DNA of 59,364 nucleotides from a candidate division WOR-3 bacterium. GTDB lineage: Bacteria; Hydrothermota; Tepidihabitantia; Tepidihabitantales; Tepidihabitantaceae. The DNA is taken from assembly GCA_039801085.1 (NCBI GenBank), contig JBDRTY010000006.1, positions 1 through 59,364 on the forward strand. Direction: 5' to 3'. Below are positions 11,103-33,359 of the stretch, in pieces. The notes beneath the pieces are model-generated. The model worked only from the letters and a program-made list of their open reading frames with translations, did not search any database and had not been told where the DNA came from. The position numbers and the translations under genes are program-made. The number at the start of each line of letters is the position of its first letter. Position 1 is the first letter of the stretch.

Positions 11103-11522
11103 TTACAGCTGAAGCAGTTTCAGCCCGGAATCGGGTTCAAGCTGGCGGACGAGCTTTTCTCTGCCGGGAATGACTGCGATTTCACAGGTGGCGGCGACCC
11201 TGCCCGCAAACAGATGACCGGAATAGGTGGTCAGCCGCCGGTTACTGATGACCGCATGGAGATGGAGCACCGGGTTCTTTTCACTCCAGGCGATATTGCC
11301 CACCAGCGTGCAGATTTCATACTCTCCCGGAAAATGACGGCGGTAGTATTTTCTGGTCTTGAGGTCATAGCAGCCCAGGTCCAGTTCACTACCGGCGCCC
11401 AGTCCGATGACAAGTCCGGACTTCAGTTTCAGCTTCCGGACAAACTGCTCCAGCGCGGGTATGATCTCCTCATTCCGCTCCAGTCGGAGCTGGTAATAAC
11501 TGCCATTTTTCCGATATCTCAT
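11103..11522 (-). CDS. PPC/DUF296 domain protein
   Basis: A 139-residue protein made of a single PPC (plants and prokaryotes conserved) domain, a family of small trimeric proteins whose plant members accompany AT-hook DNA-binding domains. Landmarks are LRLERNEEIIPALEQF, GLGAGSELDLGCYD, EICTLVGNIAW, then the metal-binding-like HLHAVIS and GHLFAGRV. Its ATG overlaps the topA stop (ATGA), so it is translationally coupled to topA. The function of bacterial PPC proteins is not established. Confidence 0.82.
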   Translation of the reverse strand: MRYRKNGSYYQLRLERNEEIIPALEQFVRKLKLKSGLVIGLGAGSELDLGCYDLKTRKYYRRHFPGEYEICTLVGNIAWSEKNPVLHLHAVISNRRLTTYSGHLFAGRVAATCEIAVIPGREKLVRQLEPDSGLKLLQL

Positions 11523-13633
11523 TTTTCCTCCTGTTTCTTCGTCACCTTCCGACTTTTTTTCTTCTTAATAAAACGGCACTGGGGATAGCCGGAGCAGGCG
11601 ATGAATCTGCCGAACCGGCCCTGGCGTTCGACGAGCGGTTTGCCGCACTGGGGACAGTTCTCCTCCAGCTGGCGCGGTGGCGGCTTGGGTTCGCGCTTGA
11701 TGTAGCTGCAGTCGGGATAGCCGGAGCAGGCGATGAATCTGCCGAACCGGCCCTGGCGTTCGACGAGCGGTTTGCCGCACTGGGGACAGTTCTCCTCCAG
11801 CACTTTGGGTTCGGTTTTCTGGACATATTCACACTGCGGATAATCGGTACAGGCGATGAACTTGCCATATCTGCCCCAGCGTTCCACGAGCGGTTTGCCA
11901 CATTTGGGACACTTTTCCTCCAGTTCGCGGGCAAGGTCCTCCCGGATTTCCGGGGTGGCGGCAAGCGCCTGATCCAGATCCGCCTTGAATGGCTGGTAAA
12001 ACCGGGCGACCACCTGGCGCCAGTTTTCAACCCCTTCCTCAATCAGGTCAAGCTGTTTTTCCATTTCCCGGGTGAAGCCGATTTCAAAGATGTTGGCAAA
12101 GCGCGGGATGAGGATGTCGTGGACAATCATTCCCAGTTCTGTCGGCACCAGTCTGCCCTGCTGGCGTTCAATATATTTGCGTTCGAGCAGGGTGGGGACA
12201 ATGGTGGCATAGGTTGAAGGCCGGCCGATGCCGTTGATCTCGAGCCGTTTGATCAGGGTCGCTTCGGTGTAGCGGGGTGGCGGCTGAGTCCACTTCTGCT
12301 CCGGGATGAGTTCAGTCAGCTGAACCGGTTCACCCGGTTTCAGTTCCGGCAGGCTTTTCTCCTTTTCCGGTTCACCATACACCTGTTCGAAGCCGGGAAA
12401 CAGACTTTTGATGCCTTCAGCCCGGAAGGTGAATCTGCCGCCACTGACCAGCAGTTCAGTCTGCTGATAGACCGCATCTGCCATCTGGGAGGCAAGAAAC
12501 CGGCGGTAGATCAGACTGTAGAGCTTGAACTGGTCCGGAGTCAGAAATTCCCGGACCGATTCCGGGGTCAGTTCCGGTCTTGTCGGCCGGATCGCCTCAT
12601 GAGCACCCTGAGTGCCCTTCCGGTCCGGATAGCGGCGCGGAGTTTCGGGCAGAAACCGGCTGCCATAATTTTCGGCAATGAGCCGGCGGGTGGTCTCGAT
12701 CACCTCTTCTGCGGTCCGGAATGAGTCGGTGCGGGGATAGGTGATCAGACCTACCGTCTCCTTTTTCAAATCCACCCCTTCAAACAGCTGCTGGGCAATC
12801 TGCATCGTCCGGCGCGAGCTCATGCCCAGCGTCTGGCCCGCCTCCTTGAGCAGGGTGGCGGTGACAAAGGGCGGAAGCGGTTTTTTGTGCTTTTCCCGGA
12901 CATTAACCTTTTCAATCCGGAAAGTTGCATTGAGACAGCCGGCGCGCACCGCCTCGACCTCGGCGGCGCTCGCAAGCCGCACATTGGCACCGTCAATCTT
13001 CACCAGCAGGGCTTCAAAGTTTGCCCCGCTGGTGGTGGTGAAAATTGCCCGGATGAGCCAGTATTCCTGAGGGGTAAATTTCCCGATCTCCCGTTCCCGC
13101 TCCACCAGGATCCGGAGTGCCACGGTCTGGACTCTGCCGGCAGACTTGCCCGCCCGGACCGTCTGCCACAGCAGTGGTGAAACGAGATAGCCGACGAGCC
13201 GGTCCATCACCCTGCGCGCCCGGTGGGAGTCCACTTTGCGCAGGTCGATTTCGCCCGGGGCGTTAAATGCGGCGGTGATGCCCTTCGGGGTGATCTCATA
13301 AAAGAGCACGCGCCGGATTGGGGCACCGTTTTTGATCTCCTGCGCCACCGAATAGGCGATCGCCTCTCCCTCCCGGTCCGGGTCGGTGCCGAGATACACC
13401 GTCTTTGCCTGACGGGCAGCAGACTTCAGTTCATTGATCACCGGTGCCTTGCCCCGGATCCGGATGTATTCCGGTTCGAATCCGTTTTCAATGTCCACCC
13501 CGAGCCGGGATTTGGGCAGATCGGCAATGTGTCCCTTTGATGAGAGCACGCGCAGTCTGCCCCTGAGCAGACGGGTGATGGTGTGCGCCTTGGTTGGCGA
13601 TTCAACAATCAGCAGGTCCTTTTTTCTTGACAT
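11519..13633 (-). CDS. topA: DNA topoisomerase I
   Basis: This 704-residue type IA topoisomerase relaxes negative supercoils. The N-terminal Toprim domain has LLIVESPTKA and GTDPDREGEAIA. The catalytic tyrosine is Y299 in GLITYPRTDS. Three zinc-finger repeats with CPKCGKP or CPQCGKP and a second Cys pair lie at the C-terminus. The last two fingers are encoded by an almost exact duplication (88 identical bases at 11582-11669 and 11714-11801, 132 bases apart). A near-leaderless promoter (TTGACT-N16-TATCCT) sits 10 bases before the ATG. Confidence 0.96.
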   Translation of the reverse strand: MSRKKDLLIVESPTKAHTITRLLRGRLRVLSSKGHIADLPKSRLGVDIENGFEPEYIRIRGKAPVINELKSAARQAKTVYLGTDPDREGEAIAYSVAQEIKNGAPIRRVLFYEITPKGITAAFNAPGEIDLRKVDSHRARRVMDRLVGYLVSPLLWQTVRAGKSAGRVQTVALRILVEREREIGKFTPQEYWLIRAIFTTTSGANFEALLVKIDGANVRLASAAEVEAVRAGCLNATFRIEKVNVREKHKKPLPPFVTATLLKEAGQTLGMSSRRTMQIAQQLFEGVDLKKETVGLITYPRTDSFRTAEEVIETTRRLIAENYGSRFLPETPRRYPDRKGTQGAHEAIRPTRPELTPESVREFLTPDQFKLYSLIYRRFLASQMADAVYQQTELLVSGGRFTFRAEGIKSLFPGFEQVYGEPEKEKSLPELKPGEPVQLTELIPEQKWTQPPPRYTEATLIKRLEINGIGRPSTYATIVPTLLERKYIERQQGRLVPTELGMIVHDILIPRFANIFEIGFTREMEKQLDLIEEGVENWRQVVARFYQPFKADLDQALAATPEIREDLARELEEKCPKCGKPLVERWGRYGKFIACTDYPQCEYVQKTEPKVLEENCPQCGKPLVERQGRFGRFIACSGYPDCSYIKREPKPPPRQLEENCPQCGKPLVERQGRFGRFIACSGYPQCRFIKKKKSRKVTKKQEEK
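11582..11801. repeat. in-frame tandem duplication inside topA
   Basis: The 88-base stretch 11582-11669 is repeated without change at 11714-11801. The offset of 132 bases equals 44 codons, adding one complete zinc-finger module. The first finger upstream is much more divergent at DNA level, so this copy is recent or kept uniform by gene conversion. Confidence 0.85.
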
Positions 13634-14738: not shown

Positions 14739-15227
14739 TCACCGCCGGAAACGGGGTTTGAGCCGGTCATAGGTGGTGCGCAGATGCTCGCTCACCACCT
14801 TGGTCTCACCGAGCAGGGGCATGAAATTGGTATCACCCTGCCACCGCGGCACAATGTGAAAATGGAGATGTCCAGGAACACCGGCACCGGCAACCGCTCC
14901 GAGGTTGGCGCCGATGTTGAACCCCTGCGGTTTGTACTCCCGTTTCAGCGCCCGGACACACCGTTTGATCAGGGCAAGCAATTCAACTGCCTCTTTTGGT
15001 TTGAGCAGTTCAATGCTGGCGGTATGGCGCAGTGGTGCGACCATCAGATGGCCGCTGTTATAGGGGAAACGGTTCATGACGACGAAGGCGGTTCTGCCCC
15101 GGAAAAGCACGAGGTTCTCCCGGTCATTTCTGCATTTTTTGAGCTGGCAGAACAGACACCCGCCCTGTTCACAGGCAGGATTTTTCATGATGTATTCGGC
15201 ACGCCAGGGTGCCCAGAGCCGTTCCAT
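14739..15227 (-). CDS. HIT-family nucleotide hydrolase/transferase
   Basis: This 162-residue histidine-triad protein probably acts on dinucleoside polyphosphates or adenylylated molecules. The catalytic triad motif is H120-L-H122-F-H124 followed by IVPRW. An N-terminal CLFC pair (C24, C27) suggests a zinc site, as in the bacterial Ap4A-phosphorylase-like branch that starts with WAPWR. The ATG at 15227 follows a TTG codon at 15230; both come directly after the endonuclease Q stop. Confidence 0.87.
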   Translation of the reverse strand: MERLWAPWRAEYIMKNPACEQGGCLFCQLKKCRNDRENLVLFRGRTAFVVMNRFPYNSGHLMVAPLRHTASIELLKPKEAVELLALIKRCVRALKREYKPQGFNIGANLGAVAGAGVPGHLHFHIVPRWQGDTNFMPLLGETKVVSEHLRTTYDRLKPRFRR

Positions 15228-15230
15228 CAA

Positions 15231-16487
15231 TCAGCCGAAAAGCCGGAGCTGCTGACCCTTTTCGCCCGGTTCGGGCTCAAAGGTGACCCTGCGGGTGCCG
15301 GGCAGGACCTGAACGGTGCCGAAGACACCGTCAAACCCGGGCTCAACCGTAACCTCACCCCGGCGCATCCGGTCAATCCCCTCCGCAATCTTCTCCCCGA
15401 AGCGGGCAATCTCTGCAACCGGCACATCCATCAGGATCTCAAACTCCGGTCCGAGACCTTTAATCATCTCCTCATACTTCTTGGCGACGCCGGCGGTGTC
15501 CCTTCCCTGCTCCAGCGCCTCGGCGATGATCTCCTCCAGCGGCACCAGGTGCTTGAACGGAATCATATCTTTGGGCACCTCCTCCGGCTTGCGGTCTGCC
15601 AGCTGTTCAACCCGGTGCAGAACACCGATTGTCAGCTTCCGGCCGCAGACCGGACAGACATCGCCCGAGAGGGTGGACTCGCCCGGTGCGAGCCGGATAC
15701 CGCAGTTACGGTGGCCATCGTAGTGATACTTGCCTTCCTCGGGAAAGAACTCAATTGTAAACAGCAGCCGGCTTTTGTCCCTGTTCTTCAGCACCTCCCG
15801 GATAGTGTCGTAATTGAGGTCGCAGTCAAACACATTCGCCTCCCTTCCCAGCCGGCTCGGAGAATGGGCGTCGGAGTTGGAGATCAGGGTCTTTTTATCC
15901 AGTTCCGAAAGCCGCCAGTTCATCGGCGGGTCGGATGACAGTCCGGTCTCGACCGCAAACACCTCATCCGCCATGTCACCGAAGCAGTCGGTGAAGGAGT
16001 CGAATCCGGAGTTGGCGCCATAAAGAGAGAACCACGGCGTCCAGATGTGGGCAGGAACAATAAACGCCCGGGGTTCCAGCTCCAGAATCCGCGCCACCAT
16101 GTCCCGGCAGGAGATGCTGACACTGGGCCGGCCATCGGCATCAAGCTTGCCGTAACCGGCAAGCATTTCTGCGACCCGGGCTGCACTCTCCAGACTGGGA
16201 ACGAAGATCAGATTGTGCACCCGGCGGAGTCTGCCGTTCCAGGAGTAGATATTATTCACCTCGGTGTTGATGATGAAATGAACATCATCGTAAAGATAAA
16301 GGCCGTTGCCTCCATCCTTCAGGTGCTGGCTGAGCGACGCAAAATATTCCGGATGGGTGAAATCACCGGTTGCGACCAGTCTGATCCCCTTCTGCTTTGC
16401 TGCCCGGGCGATTGCGGGAATGTCCATATCGGAACTGGTTGCCCGGGAGAAACGGGAATGGATATGGAGATCGGCAATGAAGCGCAC
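15231..16487 (-). CDS. endonuclease Q-like PHP-domain DNA repair nuclease
   Basis: This 418-residue protein matches the endonuclease Q family, which nicks DNA 5' of deaminated bases (uracil, hypoxanthine) and is best known in Thermococcales. It begins with the PHP metal motif ADLHIHSRFSRATS, and later has GDFTHPEY, VPAHIWTPWFSLYG, SNSDAHSPSRLGREAN and a zinc-finger-like C-x2-C (VCPVCGRKL). The C-terminus ends QQLRLFG: QLRLF fits the bacterial sliding-clamp-binding consensus QLxLF. The start is GTG, three bases after the methyltransferase stop. Confidence 0.85.
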   Translation of the reverse strand: MRFIADLHIHSRFSRATSSDMDIPAIARAAKQKGIRLVATGDFTHPEYFASLSQHLKDGGNGLYLYDDVHFIINTEVNNIYSWNGRLRRVHNLIFVPSLESAARVAEMLAGYGKLDADGRPSVSISCRDMVARILELEPRAFIVPAHIWTPWFSLYGANSGFDSFTDCFGDMADEVFAVETGLSSDPPMNWRLSELDKKTLISNSDAHSPSRLGREANVFDCDLNYDTIREVLKNRDKSRLLFTIEFFPEEGKYHYDGHRNCGIRLAPGESTLSGDVCPVCGRKLTIGVLHRVEQLADRKPEEVPKDMIPFKHLVPLEEIIAEALEQGRDTAGVAKKYEEMIKGLGPEFEILMDVPVAEIARFGEKIAEGIDRMRRGEVTVEPGFDGVFGTVQVLPGTRRVTFEPEPGEKGQQLRLFG

Positions 16488-16490
16488 GGC

Positions 16491-17288
16491 TTATTTTAAT
16501 TTCTTTCCGGCGGATTGCAAATCCGGCGTTGGGTGCCGGCGCGGCTTTTCCGCTACCACCATCATTCGCACCGAGAAGGGGTTTACCGGCAGAAAGGTGC
16601 CGTGATGAAAGAAACGGGAACGGCTGAAACCCGTCCGCTCCAGCGCCTGCCGGACCTCGTCAATCGTATATGCCCGCTCCTGGTGAATTTCCTCATATTT
16701 TTCACCGGTGGTGCCGTCCGGCAGTTTCTCCCAGAAGACCAGCCTGAGGGTGGAGAGCATGGTCTGGCGGTCAAACCGGCACTGCCAGATCGAGACGATC
16801 TCCTCGTTCTCCCGGGTGAGCGTCCGGCTGCCCCACTGCTTTTCCAGTCCGTAAACGGTGTTCAGGTCAAAGACAAAAAGCCCGCCCGGCACCAGCGCCT
16901 GATAAACACAGGCAAAACAGCGCTCCAGCTCCTCCTCGGTCAGCAGGTAGTTGATGCTGTCATAAAGTGATATTGCCGCATCTACCGGCTCAGGCAGAGT
17001 AAAATTCCGGATGTCGGCGTTAATCACGGTGATCGGCAGATCGCCCTTCTTTGATTCCAGCACCGCCAGCATCTCGGCCGAGCGGTCAATGCCGATCACC
17101 TGATAGCCGCGGCGGGCAAAAAGGACGGTCGGAATCCCGGTGCCGCAGGCAAGATCAAGCAGTTTCTTCGGCTGGCGCCGGAACCGTCTGAAGATCCGCT
17201 CAACATAATCCACCCATTCCGGATAGTCAACATACTTCTCCATGAACCGGTCATAATAGCGGGCAAACCGGACAAAGGGCAGGGGCAT
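16491..17288 (-). CDS. class I SAM-dependent methyltransferase
   Basis: A 265-residue Rossmann-fold methyltransferase. Motif I LLDLACGTGIPTV binds S-adenosylmethionine; motif II GIDRSAEML, the INADIRNF loop and ALVPGGLFVFDLNT follow in order. The acceptor is unknown; the family resembles small-molecule methyltransferases. It heads the minus-strand run methyltransferase, EndoQ, HIT, HAD, acpS. The ATG at 17288 is preferred to the TTG two codons earlier. A TTGACT-N16-TATCTA promoter ends nine bases upstream. Confidence 0.85.
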   Translation of the reverse strand: MPLPFVRFARYYDRFMEKYVDYPEWVDYVERIFRRFRRQPKKLLDLACGTGIPTVLFARRGYQVIGIDRSAEMLAVLESKKGDLPITVINADIRNFTLPEPVDAAISLYDSINYLLTEEELERCFACVYQALVPGGLFVFDLNTVYGLEKQWGSRTLTRENEEIVSIWQCRFDRQTMLSTLRLVFWEKLPDGTTGEKYEEIHQERAYTIDEVRQALERTGFSRSRFFHHGTFLPVNPFSVRMMVVAEKPRRHPTPDLQSAGKKLK

Positions 17289-17297
17289 CCTCAATCA

Positions 17298-27515: not shown

Positions 27516-27759
27516 GCAAAATGCAAAATGAAAAGGGGAAGGGGTGCGAAGTTGAGGGTCATTGCCGGTTTTGCTCTATTCAGTTAGAGTCAGAAACATG
27601 GCGTAATTTCACATTTTCAACCCGACTTTCCCGGGTGCTGTTCCGGTAAGTTGCGGTTCTGCAGAGTGTTGCCAGGCTGATGCCGGTTTGTGCCCGAAGA
27701 GGGGGGCAGTTCCCCCCACCGTCAGGCGTAAAGCGGTCGGCAGGGTCGGTTTATCGCAA

Positions 27760-27787
27760 TTGACAGTTTATCATGCCGGGTTATACT
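27760..27787 (+). promoter_or_regulatory. promoter of the BREX-like operon
   Basis: TTGACA (27760-27765), 16 bases, TATACT (27782-27787). The first ATG (27790) lies only two bases after the -10 and would be upstream of the transcript start. The ATG at 27796 would sit at its very 5' end. Confidence 0.65.
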
Positions 27788-27795
27788 GTATGGAT

Positions 27796-28659
27796 ATGGA
27801 AGGGCTGTCTGGAGTTCTGAAGGAGCTTGCCCGCCGGTCGCAGCTGCTGGTCAAGAGGCTGAACAGTTATCAGGTTCTGCTGCAGGAGCCGGTGGCAAAC
27901 GCCCATGAGCGGGCACGGGCGCTGGCGGAGATCGAGAAGCTTGGCAACGGTTTTCCGGATGGCGAGGTCCGGCAGAAACTGCTGGCGTGGCTGGATTCGG
28001 AGCGGGCGCAGGTTGAGGAGGCAAAGTCGGAGTTCCGGTTTGAGTTTGGAAAAAGGCTGATTGCGGGGCTGGAAGGGAGCGGTCTTGTGGTCCGCGGTCA
28101 GCTGCCGGTGCTGCGGATCGGTTTTTTCACCATCCGGGCAGACTTTGAGCGGGGCAGGGCGACCATCTTCTGGGGTCCGGAGATTGAGGAGATCAAAAGC
28201 GGTATCCCGCTGGAGCCGGTCGGGCTGGCAAGGCTGGTGCGGAGCTATCAGGAGAGCCTGAAGGCGAAGGGGGTCCGGGAGCCGGAGGAGTTTCTTGCCC
28301 GCCTGCTGGCGGCATATCGGCGCCGGTGCACTGCCGAAGGGCTGGCGGAAGGGGAGCGGGTCCTGCTTTCGGACCTGCTTGCCGAGCTGGTGCTCTTGAG
28401 TCAGCCGGAAAGTTTCCGGGTTGATCCGGTCCGGGAAAATTTTGTTGAGTATCCGCGCATCCGGTTCAGTTATGACCTGTATCTATTGAAGCGCTCCGGG
28501 GTGCGGGCGGTTGCCGGGCAGGAGCTGCGGCTGACCGTTGCCAATTTTGATGCGACCGCAAAAAAGAGCCGGGCGCTGTGGGTGCCGGACAGTGAGGAAG
28601 GGGACGGAACCTATTATTCCTATATCGCATTTGTGCCGGTGCGGAGCACGGGTGCGTGA
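27796..28659 (+). CDS. unknown protein, first gene of the BREX-like ATPase-helicase operon
   Basis: About 287 residues, not recognised. The N-terminal third is helical and probably coiled-coil (Leu/Glu/Arg-rich, with an ARRSQLLVKRLNSYQVLLQE stretch). A central beta-rich part contains LPVLRIGFFTIRADFERGRA and IFWGPEIEEI; the C-terminal part has FVEYPRIRFSYDLYLL and ends in a beta-rich region. No catalytic motif is evident. It precedes the first ATPase by 27 bases on the same strand, so it is probably an adaptor or effector of that system. The start was chosen from promoter position; the frame is open 102 bases upstream of 27790. Confidence 0.72.
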   Translation: MEGLSGVLKELARRSQLLVKRLNSYQVLLQEPVANAHERARALAEIEKLGNGFPDGEVRQKLLAWLDSERAQVEEAKSEFRFEFGKRLIAGLEGSGLVVRGQLPVLRIGFFTIRADFERGRATIFWGPEIEEIKSGIPLEPVGLARLVRSYQESLKAKGVREPEEFLARLLAAYRRRCTAEGLAEGERVLLSDLLAELVLLSQPESFRVDPVRENFVEYPRIRFSYDLYLLKRSGVRAVAGQELRLTVANFDATAKKSRALWVPDSEEGDGTYYSYIAFVPVRSTGA

Positions 28660-28686
28660 GCCGGACCGGCAGATGAGGAGGTGGCA

Positions 28687-29952
28687 ATGGAGCGGGAGCT
28701 GGCAAGGGCAGTAATCAACAAGCTGGGTTCAACCGGCACACCGCCGGAGTTCGGGATTGAGGCGTTTACCGTCGGGCTGGACCGTTATCTGAAGGTGATT
28801 GAGGAGGAGTATCTGGATGGCATCCTCAAGTTCAACCTTTCCAGTTTCAAGCTGATCACCGGCAATTACGGCGGGGGCAAGACCCACTTTCTCTATTCGG
28901 TGCGCAATCTGGCGTTCAAGCACAACTACTGTGTGGCGTATGTGAGTCTGAACCCGACCGAGTGTCCGTTTGACAAGCTGGAGCTGGTCTACAAGGCGGT
29001 GGCGCTCAATCTGAGTGCACCCCAGCCGACCGATGCGATTCTGCCCCTCGGGGAGAAGGGGATTGACTCGGTGATCCGGCGCTGGGCACGGGAGTGGCGC
29101 AAGAAGGAGGAGCGGACCGAACGGCTCGAAAGCTATCTGCTGGATCTGCCGATGACCGACTCGACGAGCTTCTTCAATGCGGTGCGCGGGGCGTTTCAGT
29201 CGCTTTTGGCTGAGGACCTGGAGTCTTTTCAGGAGGCGGTGCAGTGGCTCAAGGGCGAGGAGGCAGGACGGGAGACGAGGGCGCGCTTCCGGATTTCAGA
29301 GCGGATTGACAAGTCAACCGCCTTCCGGATGCTGCGGTCGCTGGCGCAGTGGGTGCATGCGATCGGCTACCGGGGTCTGATCCTGCTCTTTGATGAGGCG
29401 GAGCGGGGGATGTCCATCGCCTCAGCCCGGGACAAGCGCCGGGCACTGGACAATCTGCGCCAGCTGGTGGATGAGTGCGGTAACTCCCGGCTGCCGGGTG
29501 CGATGTTCTTCTATGCGGTCCCGGATGACAATCTGCTGCTTGAGGGTTCAGGTCCGGTTTATGAGGCATTGAAGCAGCGGCTCCGGAGCGTGTTTTCCGA
29601 GACCAATCCGGTCGGGGTGCGGATCAACCTTGAGGAGCTGGGGATGGAGCCGGTGGCATTTCTCGAACAGCTGGGGGTGAAGCTGCGGATGCTGTTTGAG
29701 CAGGCGTATGATGTCCGGCTCAGCGGCGCGGAGAAGGTGCTGAAGGTGCTGGCGCAGACCGCGGTCGAGCGGTTTGTGCTTGATGTCAGCTACCGCCGGC
29801 TGTTTGTCGTTGCCGCGGTCGAACTGCTGCACCGGCTGAAGGCGGAGCCGAATCTGAGTTTCACAGCCCGGGATGCGGAGAAGCTGCTGCGGGTGACCAC
29901 CCAGAAGCTGGTGAAGCAGGAGCAGGAGGCGGTGGAGCGTGAGGAGTTCTAA
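28687..29952 (+). CDS. BREX-type (DUF2791/BrxD-like) ATPase 1
   Basis: A 421-residue P-loop ATPase matching the BREX system ATP-binding family. It opens with the family-like PPEFGIEAFTVGLDRYL, has Walker A GNYGGGKTHF (59-68), Walker B LILLFDEAE (about 231-239) and a sensor-like stretch around FFYAVPDDNLLLE. The C-terminal third is helical. GAGGAGG lies just before the ATG. In BREX type 2 and related loci, BrxD acts with the helicase BrxHI; here it sits beside a second ATPase and a helicase. The DNA role is inferred from family, not seen. Confidence 0.85.
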   Translation: MERELARAVINKLGSTGTPPEFGIEAFTVGLDRYLKVIEEEYLDGILKFNLSSFKLITGNYGGGKTHFLYSVRNLAFKHNYCVAYVSLNPTECPFDKLELVYKAVALNLSAPQPTDAILPLGEKGIDSVIRRWAREWRKKEERTERLESYLLDLPMTDSTSFFNAVRGAFQSLLAEDLESFQEAVQWLKGEEAGRETRARFRISERIDKSTAFRMLRSLAQWVHAIGYRGLILLFDEAERGMSIASARDKRRALDNLRQLVDECGNSRLPGAMFFYAVPDDNLLLEGSGPVYEALKQRLRSVFSETNPVGVRINLEELGMEPVAFLEQLGVKLRMLFEQAYDVRLSGAEKVLKVLAQTAVERFVLDVSYRRLFVVAAVELLHRLKAEPNLSFTARDAEKLLRVTTQKLVKQEQEAVEREEF

Positions 29953-31294
29953 ACTGGTCTCCCATCCGGTGTTCGGCGAGGGGGAGGTGCTGGACAGCCG
30001 CTGGCAGGGGAGTGAGCTGCTGGTGCGGTTTCAGACCGGGCTGCGGCTCTGGCTGCCCCGGCACCGGGTGCGGTTTCTGGTTGAGGTGGACGAGTCGCTG
30101 CTCGATGCGGCGGTTGCCCGGAGTGCGGGTGTGGACCGGGTGAGCGCCTGCCGGATGATTGAGGCATTCCGGCTCGGGATTGTGCCCCATCAGGATGTGG
30201 AGCGGTTCACCTTCGGCCGGGACCAGGAGCTGAAGGTGATTGAGCGGATGCTTGCCGGGCTGGAGCAGGGCCGGGGGGATGTGGTGATGTTTGAGGGTGA
30301 ATACGGGAGTGGCAAGACCCATATCCTTGAGCTTATTCACCACCGGGCGCTCCAGGCCGGGATGGTGGTCAGTCTGGTGCAGTTTGATCCGGTTGAGGTT
30401 TCGCCCCACCGGCCGAAGCGGGTCTACCGGGAGCTGGTGCGTAATCTGCGGTTCATCAGCGGGGATCGGGAGGGCGGATTCCGGGAACTGCTCCAGCTGG
30501 CAACCCGGCTGGATCTCGCTGACCATGTCTTCTTCGGTCCGCTCCTGCGTAAGCTGAAGCGGCTCGAGCCGGGCGCCCGGGAGAGTGAGGTGTTCTGGCA
30601 GTGGGTCGAGGGTGAGAGCACCAAGGAGTATGCGACCGAGATGCGCTCACCCTACCGGGTGCGGGGTGCGCAGGGGATTCCGGCCCTTTATGACTTCTCC
30701 ACCGCTGCCGACTTCTACTGTAATATCATTTCTGCGATCTCCTGGATGAGCCGGCAGCTCGGCTTCCGGGGGCTGGTGCTGCTCCTTGATGAGGCGGAGA
30801 CGGTGACCCGGCTCTGGGATATCGTCTATCTCTCCAAGAGCATCAACTTCATGGAGGGGCTGGTGCGGGTGGCGCTCAATGACCCCCAGCTGCGGGAGGT
30901 TTCGGACCGGCTGATTCACAATCAGGTCCGGCCGGTGCCCTATATCTACCGGGAGCCGGCGCTGCTGCTTATTTTTGCGACGACCCCGACCCCGGGTGAA
31001 TACGGCTATCTCCGGCTCGCCAATTCGGTCCGGCGCAAGCTGGAGCTGACACCGCTGGCCGAGCAGGCGCTGGTGGATGCGTTTGCGACGATGATCCGGA
31101 TTTACGAGCGGGCATATCCGGGCTTCAAACTGCCGGTCGAGGAGCAGAAACGGCTCCTTGCCTGGCTGGGCAGGAAGAGCAGTGGCGGGGTCCGGACCTT
31201 TATCAAGGGGTGTGTTGAGGGGCTGGACATCGCCCGGCTCCGGCAGCGGGGCATAATTTCCGCACCGGCGGAGATGTCAAGCCGGGCAGGATAA
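29939..31294 (+). CDS. BREX-type (DUF2791-like) ATPase 2 with N-terminal tudor-like domain
   Basis: A 451-residue protein beginning at GTG 29939, 14 bases inside the first ATPase gene. Residues 6-48 (SHPVFGEGEVL...VRF) resemble the PcrA/UvrD C-terminal tudor-like domain that binds RNA polymerase, or a CarD-like fold. The rest is a P-loop ATPase with Walker A EGEYGSGKTHIL (about 119-130) and Walker B LVLLLDEAE (about 279-287). FGRDQELKVIERML before Walker A matches the BREX ATPase family. It is a distant paralogue of ATPase 1; the pair may form a hetero-oligomeric motor. Confidence 0.83.
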   Translation: MRSSKLVSHPVFGEGEVLDSRWQGSELLVRFQTGLRLWLPRHRVRFLVEVDESLLDAAVARSAGVDRVSACRMIEAFRLGIVPHQDVERFTFGRDQELKVIERMLAGLEQGRGDVVMFEGEYGSGKTHILELIHHRALQAGMVVSLVQFDPVEVSPHRPKRVYRELVRNLRFISGDREGGFRELLQLATRLDLADHVFFGPLLRKLKRLEPGARESEVFWQWVEGESTKEYATEMRSPYRVRGAQGIPALYDFSTAADFYCNIISAISWMSRQLGFRGLVLLLDEAETVTRLWDIVYLSKSINFMEGLVRVALNDPQLREVSDRLIHNQVRPVPYIYREPALLLIFATTPTPGEYGYLRLANSVRRKLELTPLAEQALVDAFATMIRIYERAYPGFKLPVEEQKRLLAWLGRKSSGGVRTFIKGCVEGLDIARLRQRGIISAPAEMSSRAG

Positions 31295-31301
31295 GGCGGA
31301 T

Positions 31302-33359
31302 TTGGCAGCATCAGAGCTTGAAGGACAGGCAACCGGCAGAGAGATCCGGCAGGCACTGCGCCGGACCTGGCATCCGTTCTTCAGCCGGTTCGGCAGTCTG
31401 ACCCCGGTCCAGCTCGAGGCGATCCCGGTAATCCTTCAGGGGAACAATCTGGTGCTGATCTCGCCGGCTGCTTCGGGCAAGACCGAGGCGGTGGTGGCGC
31501 CGGTGGTGGAACGGCTGCTGGCGCAGGGGTGCCGGGACTTTTCCGTGCTTTACATCTCGCCGACCCGGGCGCTGGTCAATGACCTCTACCGCCGGCTGGT
31601 GGAGCCGCTCGAGTATCTGGGGCTGAAGCTGGAGCGCAAGACCGGTGATCACCCGGCAATTGATGAGGACCGGCTGCCGTTCATGCTTCTGACCACACCG
31701 GAGTCGTTTGACTCCCTGCTCTGCCGGCACCCCAGAATCTTCACCAGCCTCAAGGCGGTGATCATTGACGAGATTCACCTCCTGGACAACAGCCCGCGCG
31801 GGGATCAGCTGCGGATTCTGCTCGAACGGCTGCGGCTGATCAACCCCGCAGTCAGCTGTTATGCCCTGTCGGCGACGATTGATGATGAGCGGATCGGGGA
31901 GCGGTATTTTCCGGACGGGGTGGTGGTCAAGGTGGCAAATCAGCGGGAGATTGAGGCGGAACTGCTGAAGGCGGGCCGGGACTGGGCAGGGGCGGTGCTG
32001 GAGCGGCTCGTGGCGCTCGGTGCCCACAAGGTGCTGGTGTTCTTTAATGCCCGGTCGCTTGCCGAAGCCGGGGTCCGGCTTTTTGACCGCACCCCGTTTA
32101 CCGGCAGGGTCTGGGTCCATCATGCCAGTCTGACCCGGCAGGTGCGCGAGGAGGTGGAGGCAAGGATGAACCGGGAGCGGAGCGGGATTCTGCTCTGCAC
32201 CTCGACGCTGGAACTCGGGATTGACATCGGTGATGTGGATGCGGTTGTGCTTTACCGGCCGCCGTTCAATGTCTCCTCACTCCTCCAGCGGATCGGCAGA
32301 GGCAACCGGCGCCGGGGCAACGGGCTGGTCATGCTTGGCGTCTATCTTGACTCCTGGGAAAGGCTGCTGTTTGAGACCTTCATTGACCTTGCCCGCCAGG
32401 GCCGGCTTTACGAGAAGCGGTATACTCCGAGCCTGGCGGTCATTCCCCAGCAGATTGTCTCCTATCTGTTTCAGCGCCGGCGGATCGGCACGACCCGGGA
32501 TGCGCTCCGGCGGATCTTTGCGCCGGTCTACGGCACAAGCCGCGTCTGGGAGCAGGTGCTTGATTATCTCCTGGAGCAGGGGGTCGTCCAGACCGACCGC
32601 CGCGGCCTGCTCTATGCCGGTGAGGCGATCAGCCGGCGGATTGAGACCGGCCGGATTCACTCCAATATTCAGGAGAAGAGTTTCGGTCAGTATGAGGTCA
32701 TTGACACCACCACCGGCCAGCAGGTGGGCACGGTGTTCTTTGTGCTGGAGCGGTTCATGCTGGCGGGCAGGTCCTGGGAGATAGTTGAACGCCGGGAAAA
32801 GGAGAAGCGGATCTTTGTCAAATCGCTGAATACCGTCTCCGACAGCACCAAGGTGTTTGAAGGCACCGGCACCGGCGGTTATTATTACCGGCTGGCCGAG
32901 GTATTAAAGAGCCGGATCTTTCCCGGGCTGGCACCCGAGGAGTTTCCCTATTACACCGATGGCAGCCGGGCGTTCATCTTTCATCTCCTGGGCACAACCT
33001 ATGGCGGGCTGCTGGCCGGCGGACTGCAGGCAGAAGGGGTTGATGCCGAGGATCTGGCGGGCAAGGTGCTGGTGGTCCGGCTGAAGGAGGATGAGGACCT
33101 GCACCGGATGCCGCTGCCGGGCCGGGAGGCGCTCAAGGCGGTGGTGCGGGCACACCGGATTGAGTTTGAGGACAGTCTGGGCTCGGGTGCCTTCTTTGAC
33201 CTTCTGCCCGAGGAGCTGCAGGTTGAGGACCACCTGCTGGCGCTGGATATTGACGGGCTCTGGGCATATCTTGACACCTGGAAGCTGGTGCGGATGGAGG
33301 TGCAGGCGGTGCGCGCCCAGATTGCCGAACATCTGCCGGAGATGGTGGGTGATGAATAG
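31302..33359 (+). CDS. Lhr/BrxHI-like superfamily 2 helicase
   Basis: A 685-residue DEAD/DEAH helicase. Motif I is SPAASGKTEAVV (about 54-65), Ia YISPTRALVND, Ib TTPES, II DEIH (about 156-159), III SAT, V CTSTLELGIDIGDVD, and VI QRIGRGNRR (about 329-337). The C-terminal half, with ERFMLAGRSWEIVERREK and FHLLGTTYGG, resembles the Lhr winged-helix and domain-4 region. It starts at TTG, seven bases after ATPase 2, with AAGGCGG before it. BrxHI in BREX type 2 is the closest named relative I can suggest. Confidence 0.85.
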   Translation: MAASELEGQATGREIRQALRRTWHPFFSRFGSLTPVQLEAIPVILQGNNLVLISPAASGKTEAVVAPVVERLLAQGCRDFSVLYISPTRALVNDLYRRLVEPLEYLGLKLERKTGDHPAIDEDRLPFMLLTTPESFDSLLCRHPRIFTSLKAVIIDEIHLLDNSPRGDQLRILLERLRLINPAVSCYALSATIDDERIGERYFPDGVVVKVANQREIEAELLKAGRDWAGAVLERLVALGAHKVLVFFNARSLAEAGVRLFDRTPFTGRVWVHHASLTRQVREEVEARMNRERSGILLCTSTLELGIDIGDVDAVVLYRPPFNVSSLLQRIGRGNRRRGNGLVMLGVYLDSWERLLFETFIDLARQGRLYEKRYTPSLAVIPQQIVSYLFQRRRIGTTRDALRRIFAPVYGTSRVWEQVLDYLLEQGVVQTDRRGLLYAGEAISRRIETGRIHSNIQEKSFGQYEVIDTTTGQQVGTVFFVLERFMLAGRSWEIVERREKEKRIFVKSLNTVSDSTKVFEGTGTGGYYYRLAEVLKSRIFPGLAPEEFPYYTDGSRAFIFHLLGTTYGGLLAGGLQAEGVDAEDLAGKVLVVRLKEDEDLHRMPLPGREALKAVVRAHRIEFEDSLGSGAFFDLLPEELQVEDHLLALDIDGLWAYLDTWKLVRMEVQAVRAQIAEHLPEMVGDE

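Follow-up and report, generated by a model that had tools for sequence, protein, structure and literature searches.

The window, that is, the whole 59,364-nucleotide stretch of DNA analysed here, encodes a homologue of endonuclease Q (EndoQ; 15231–16487, minus strand; 418 amino acids, GTG start) which ends in a candidate motif for binding the bacterial sliding clamp. The protein encoded by this open reading frame terminates in ...EPGEKGQQLRLFG, followed by the stop codon at 15231–15233, and the motif itself, QLRLF (15237–15251, minus strand), is separated from the stop codon by a single glycine. We consider it probable that this protein is a bacterial EndoQ, a metal-dependent enzyme of the PHP family which nicks DNA 5′ of deaminated bases (uracil, hypoxanthine) or abasic sites, and that it is tethered to the β-clamp DnaN by QLRLF on a flexible tail. 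We infer the enzymatic activity from relatives that have been assayed in print, and presume that the tail binds in the pocket of DnaN.

The 418-residue protein shows full-length homology to EndoQ and shares its architecture of PHP domain, zinc site and C-terminal part, as judged with phmmer and Foldseek. In the phmmer search, the EndoQ of P. furiosus (5zb8) was matched over residues 5–394 with an E value of 3.2e-59. The AlphaFold2 model, for which a 20-row alignment served as input, has a mean pLDDT of 92 and matched the EndoQ structures 5zb8 and 7k30 in Foldseek with E values of 2e-37 to 2e-41 and TM scores of 0.85–0.90 (TMq 0.85–0.86), the identity to P. furiosus EndoQ being about 33% over the fold match. 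No Pfam family was matched by the protein, and its score for NCBIfam TIGR00375, a model which matches EndoQ (205.9 bits), lies under the curated cut-off of 326.6 bits, so that it is not assigned to this family. The same cut-off was reached in none of the 147 genomes of the home phylum.

Alignment to P. furiosus EndoQ places D6, H8, H10, E76, H91, H147, E180 and SDAH (205–208) in the PHP nuclease region of the window's protein (15783–16487, minus strand, the boundary at 15783 being approximate). The metal and base-pocket set of the P. furiosus PHP domain is described as D6, H8, H10, E76, H84, H139, E167, G169, S171 and SDAH (PMC4357722, PMC8307549), and E76, H84, H139, G169 and S171 are reported to be essential or to contact the base (PMC8307549). 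These five residues correspond to E76, H91, H147, G182 and S184 here and are invariant across 20 aligned EndoQs. Judged by both alignments, the metal and base-pocket residues of an EndoQ PHP domain are in place. A candidate four-ligand zinc site, consisting of H259, C262, C278 and C281 (15645–15713, minus strand), is aligned as well and is conserved in the same 20 sequences. Its first ligand is a cysteine in the T. kodakarensis and P. furiosus enzymes, whereas it is a histidine (H259) in the window's EndoQ; the other three are cysteines. A four-cysteine zinc signature has been put forward as a possible signature of EndoQ (PMC4357722). Histidine occupies the first position in 172 of 184 parsed EndoQ rows, a count which includes repeated genomes.

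A PHP nuclease with the EndoQ fold could also act on another substrate, with the tail still binding the clamp. The identity of only about a third to P. furiosus EndoQ, the histidine among the zinc ligands, the score under the TIGR00375 cut-off and the long branch between bacterial-type and methanogen-type EndoQs in the tree described below are in line with such a change. However, every residue reported as essential or base-contacting is retained, and the EndoQ of B. pumilus is mentioned as active (PMC6202378, PMC8438529). A different substrate therefore seems unlikely to us, and nicking at deaminated bases is the activity that we prefer.

Residues 402–418 (15234–15284, minus strand), which comprise a linker and the motif, are predicted to form a disordered tail (AlphaFold2 pLDDT under 50). 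The motif through which proteins bind the β-clamp is given as Q[aliphatic]x[LM][FL], with QLxLF as the strongest binder (PMC11139829). QLRLF fits this motif and lies inside the predicted disordered stretch, which is the combination sought in a clamp client. The original prediction, which had read the C-terminus as QQLRLFG and recognized the QLxLF clamp consensus in QLRLF, is confirmed in this respect. The whole genome was also scanned with degenerate DNA patterns for Q-h-x-L/F-F followed by zero or one residue and a stop codon (TGG was also admitted). Such a C-terminal pattern is matched at 15 genomic places, and of these only the one in EndoQ stands at the end of an open frame of more than 105 codons.

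The class is represented by 57 sequences, that of the window among them; all 57 keep the glutamine of the motif and the leucine ahead of the last aromatic residue, which is phenylalanine in 56 and tryptophan in one. The nine residues before the motif each vary, with entropies of 2.5–2.9 bits, and the invariant leucine is encoded by six different Leu codons. This free codon use shows that the conservation acts on the protein. The home phylum (candidate WOR-3/Caldifarciminota) was sampled with 147 genomes, 114 of which contain an EndoQ match. From these, 112 C-termini were read, one further gene running off its contig and another being a fragment; three of the 112 come from broken or partial genes with an intact 3′ end, and 11 loci repeating a genome were dropped. 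The published clamp motif is found in 88 of the 107 ordinary EndoQs of the phylum, compared with a mean of 0.42 for shuffled tails, and a looser rule with the glutamine still required, Qxx[LMIF][FWLI], is satisfied by 101; all 107 end in [LM][FW] plus at most two residues. Some lineages lack the motif glutamine and have KDGLLF, SPLLW, ERRGLF or GELTLF in its place. Five divergent EndoQs belonging to one family (374–389 amino acids as read) end right after the core, and none of the five carries the motif. The motif is thus conserved as protein sequence among orthologues, throughout the class and in most of the ordinary EndoQs of the phylum, and the outcome that would have spoken against the original prediction, a lack of tail conservation among bacterial EndoQs, was not seen in the home phylum, the divergent family excepted.

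The genome to which the window belongs has one DnaN, which matches a solved β-clamp with an E value of 1.9e-43, and one Pol III alpha subunit (DnaE), which contains an internal QYNLF. The position of this QYNLF presumably corresponds to the usual clamp-motif site of Pol III alpha proteins. Pol III alpha is therefore a second protein of this genome with a QxxLF sequence. In E. coli, the clamp motif of Pol III alpha is QADMF (PMC11139829).

Clamp binding by EndoQ has been described in archaea. The Thermococcus enzyme binds PCNA with a KD of 55 nM and its nicking is stimulated, both effects being lost without the C-terminal PIP box (PMC4858679); the statement in the original prediction that archaeal EndoQ works with PCNA is accordingly backed by published work on Thermococcus. 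In the same article, Shiraishi et al. (2016) reported β-clamp consensus motifs at the C-termini of bacterial EndoQs and called a test of them interesting (PMC4858679). The clamp-motif reading is supported at the sequence level, has already been printed as a prediction for other bacteria and is not new in kind; the window adds a well-conserved case of an EndoQ with this putative clamp motif in another phylum. The EndoQs of B. subtilis, B. pumilus and Desulfovibrio are likewise full-length bacterial homologues with a C-terminal β-clamp consensus (PMC4858679). The present protein differs from them in its phylum and in that tail conservation, codon use and disorder were measured here, the Bacillus proteins being compared by description. 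The T. kodakarensis and P. furiosus EndoQs have the same fold, the same core residues and also a clamp motif at the extreme C-terminus, but their boxes, QRSITEFL and QRTLLQYI, are directed at PCNA (PMC4858679), whereas QLRLF would address the bacterial clamp. Polymerases with the β-clamp motif also carry Q[aliphatic]x[LM][FL] at a flexible C-terminus (PMC11139829), but EndoQ is no polymerase, and the main text of this clamp-motif review has no occurrence of EndoQ.

For a wider sample, a collection of genome contigs was scanned at the DNA level for the EndoQ motif PAHx[FW..]TPW, which lies far from the tail, and at least 118 stretches were obtained. Among the matches listed, 115 loci contain an EndoQ and three do not. 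From the 115, 82 complete C-termini were kept; 25 running off the stretch were dropped together with eight others, namely six with frameshifts or odd ends, one that was masked and one on the same contig as another locus. One locus of this sample and one of the phylum sample probably come from the same genome and have the same tail, and were counted once per table. The loose motif is found in 42 of the 57 bacterial rows among the matches listed, one of these (L125) being a chance match inside the domain; most bacterial EndoQs of this sample carry the motif, with clear lineage-specific absences. The strict form Q[LM]xL[FL] occurs in 24 of the 57 bacterial and in none of the 25 archaeal complete rows among the matches listed, while unambiguous PIP boxes occur in 8 of the 25 archaeal and in none of the 57 bacterial rows. 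Still among the matches listed, the 25 archaeal tails divide into eight PIP boxes, four that fit both rules, three with QxxL[FI] and ten with neither, and the 35 standalone bacterial EndoQs into 21 QxxLF-like tails (L125 being included only through its in-domain match), 14 with neither and none with a PIP box. Eight of these 14 motif-less proteins fall in the clade of helicase fusions discussed below.

Archaea use PCNA as their clamp. Three Pacearchaeota EndoQs have tails resembling the bacterial motif (QAKLF in L144, QSTLI in L172 and QKKLF in L213), and therefore the short QxxL[FI] motif alone does not distinguish the two clamps. In a tree of 131 EndoQ rows from which the tail columns were excluded, 11 archaeal rows (methanogens and Thermoplasmatota) stand on one side, with a long branch separating them from the bacterial-type EndoQs. 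The 14 other archaeal rows (DPANN, Bathyarchaeota and relatives) are nested among bacterial EndoQs with an SH-aLRT of 97, and PIP boxes are present in 8 of the 14 among the matches listed. Within one EndoQ lineage, the tail thus mostly matches the type of the host's clamp, a pattern which comes from one or two switches. As an independent statistical test, the link between motif and domain failed for want of events: the tree offers two domain changes, from which one or two independent pairs can be formed, and the sign test gives p = 1. The switches are too few for the link to count as statistically independent. The parallel drawn originally between the bacterial clamp motif and the archaeal PIP box holds; the archaeal clade among the bacterial EndoQs is mostly of the PIP type.

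The tail might also be a real linear motif for a partner other than the clamp, for instance a protease adaptor or some further protein involved in repair, and the home-phylum lineages without the clamp-defining glutamine would suit this explanation. We regard it as improbable, because the letters and the position of the tail match the published clamp motif (PMC11139829), and QYNLF is present in the Pol III alpha encoded by this genome. Furthermore, in the archaeal clade nested in this lineage of EndoQs the tail is PIP-like, an indication that the clamp is the partner. That so short a C-terminal motif, of five residues, should be neutral or due to chance is very improbable in view of its excess over shuffled tails (88 of 107 against a mean of 0.42) and of its invariance beside a variable linker and with free codons.

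In the mechanism proposed for the clamp-tethered EndoQ, the PHP domain would nick DNA on the 5′ side of a deaminated base, while the QLRLF tail would dock in the DnaN pocket. With its flexible tail, EndoQ would be able to travel with a loaded clamp or be brought to one, and the enzyme may in this way be recruited to DNA under replication or resynthesis. Should the tail bind DnaN, the repair of uracil and hypoxanthine by bacterial EndoQ would be coupled to the clamp as in archaea, with the same enzyme using a different motif for each clamp. With a match in 114 of the 147 home-phylum genomes, the distribution of EndoQ reaches far outside the small number of bacterial genera mentioned in the literature examined. 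The UDG superfamily (PF03167) gave no match in the window's genome or in two congeners (completeness 96.8%, 96% and 97%, respectively), and all three contain EndoQ and EndoV. As no UDG was detected in these genomes, EndoQ may start uracil repair in the genus. The idea that EndoQ and UDG are mutual substitutes was rejected for the 147 genomes, 82 of which have both, 32 only EndoQ, 26 only UDG and 7 neither (Fisher p 0.51). The two are not complementary across the phylum, and therefore nothing general follows from the UDG-less genus.

A clade of 49 bacterial rows in the 131-row tree (SH-aLRT 96) contains fusions of EndoQ with a UvrD-like helicase, and the UvrD-helicase domains of one of them (L157) were confirmed with Pfam. 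The fusions share the EndoQ domain and the end motif with the window's EndoQ, which by comparison is standalone. Among the matches listed, 20 of the 22 complete fusions have a QxxLF-like end, one fits both rules and one neither (EHLSLF), with 15 fitting the strict form; in 21 of the 22, the motif sits at the new C-terminus, that is, at the helicase end. The junction between EndoQ and helicase keeps Qxx[LMI][FW] in 8 of the 32 readable fusions among the matches listed (shuffle mean 0.49) and xx[LM]F in 20 of them (shuffle mean 3.3). Junction and C-terminal motifs are both present in at least five fusions. Loci with such a double motif include L117 (QLNLF at the junction, QLRLF at the end), L131, L147, L158 and L192. 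At L199, EndoQ and helicase are adjoining separate genes, each with a motif (QLTLF and QMTLF, respectively), and at L150 a split EndoQ lacks the tail while the neighbouring helicase ends in QLTLF. A split neighbouring helicase was considered as an explanation for tail-less standalone EndoQs and holds for L150 only: nine other loci have no helicase-like ORF in the surrounding stretch, and two more (L196 and L179) gave no helicase match either; L168, whose stretch extends too little downstream, was left aside.

No description of EndoQ–UvrD fusions was found in searches of open-licence PubMed Central papers. The double-motif fusion, an extension encountered in none of the papers searched, is the aspect that most deserves experimental study. 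More tentatively, EndoQ may be seen as a repair module held to the clamp by a tail that is adapted to the clamp of the host, QxxLF for DnaN and a PIP box for PCNA. In many bacteria, it would then form one chain with a UvrD-like helicase, with one clamp motif terminating the helicase and frequently another at the junction, which could make a doubly clamp-anchored nick-and-unwind machine for deaminated bases. This broader picture is possible, and we hold it with clearly less confidence than the tethering of the window's EndoQ.

The EndoQ gene lies between a gene for a HIT-domain protein directly downstream (14739–15230, minus strand) and one for a SAM-dependent methyltransferase directly upstream (16491–17294, minus strand). 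The three genes are probably carried on the same transcript, as judged from their spacing only. Elsewhere in the window, the region 28681–33359 (plus strand), together with 27688–28659 (plus strand), encodes a tandem pair of BrxC/D-type ATPases followed by a BrxHI/SngC-like helicase, and PADLOC also matches SngB/SngC. This cluster looks like a small defence-type module; the ORF in front of it had no Pfam or PADLOC match. A topoisomerase I-like protein is encoded at 11519–13633 (minus strand), and its end carries, as read from the translation only, three zinc-finger-like repeats that resemble one another.
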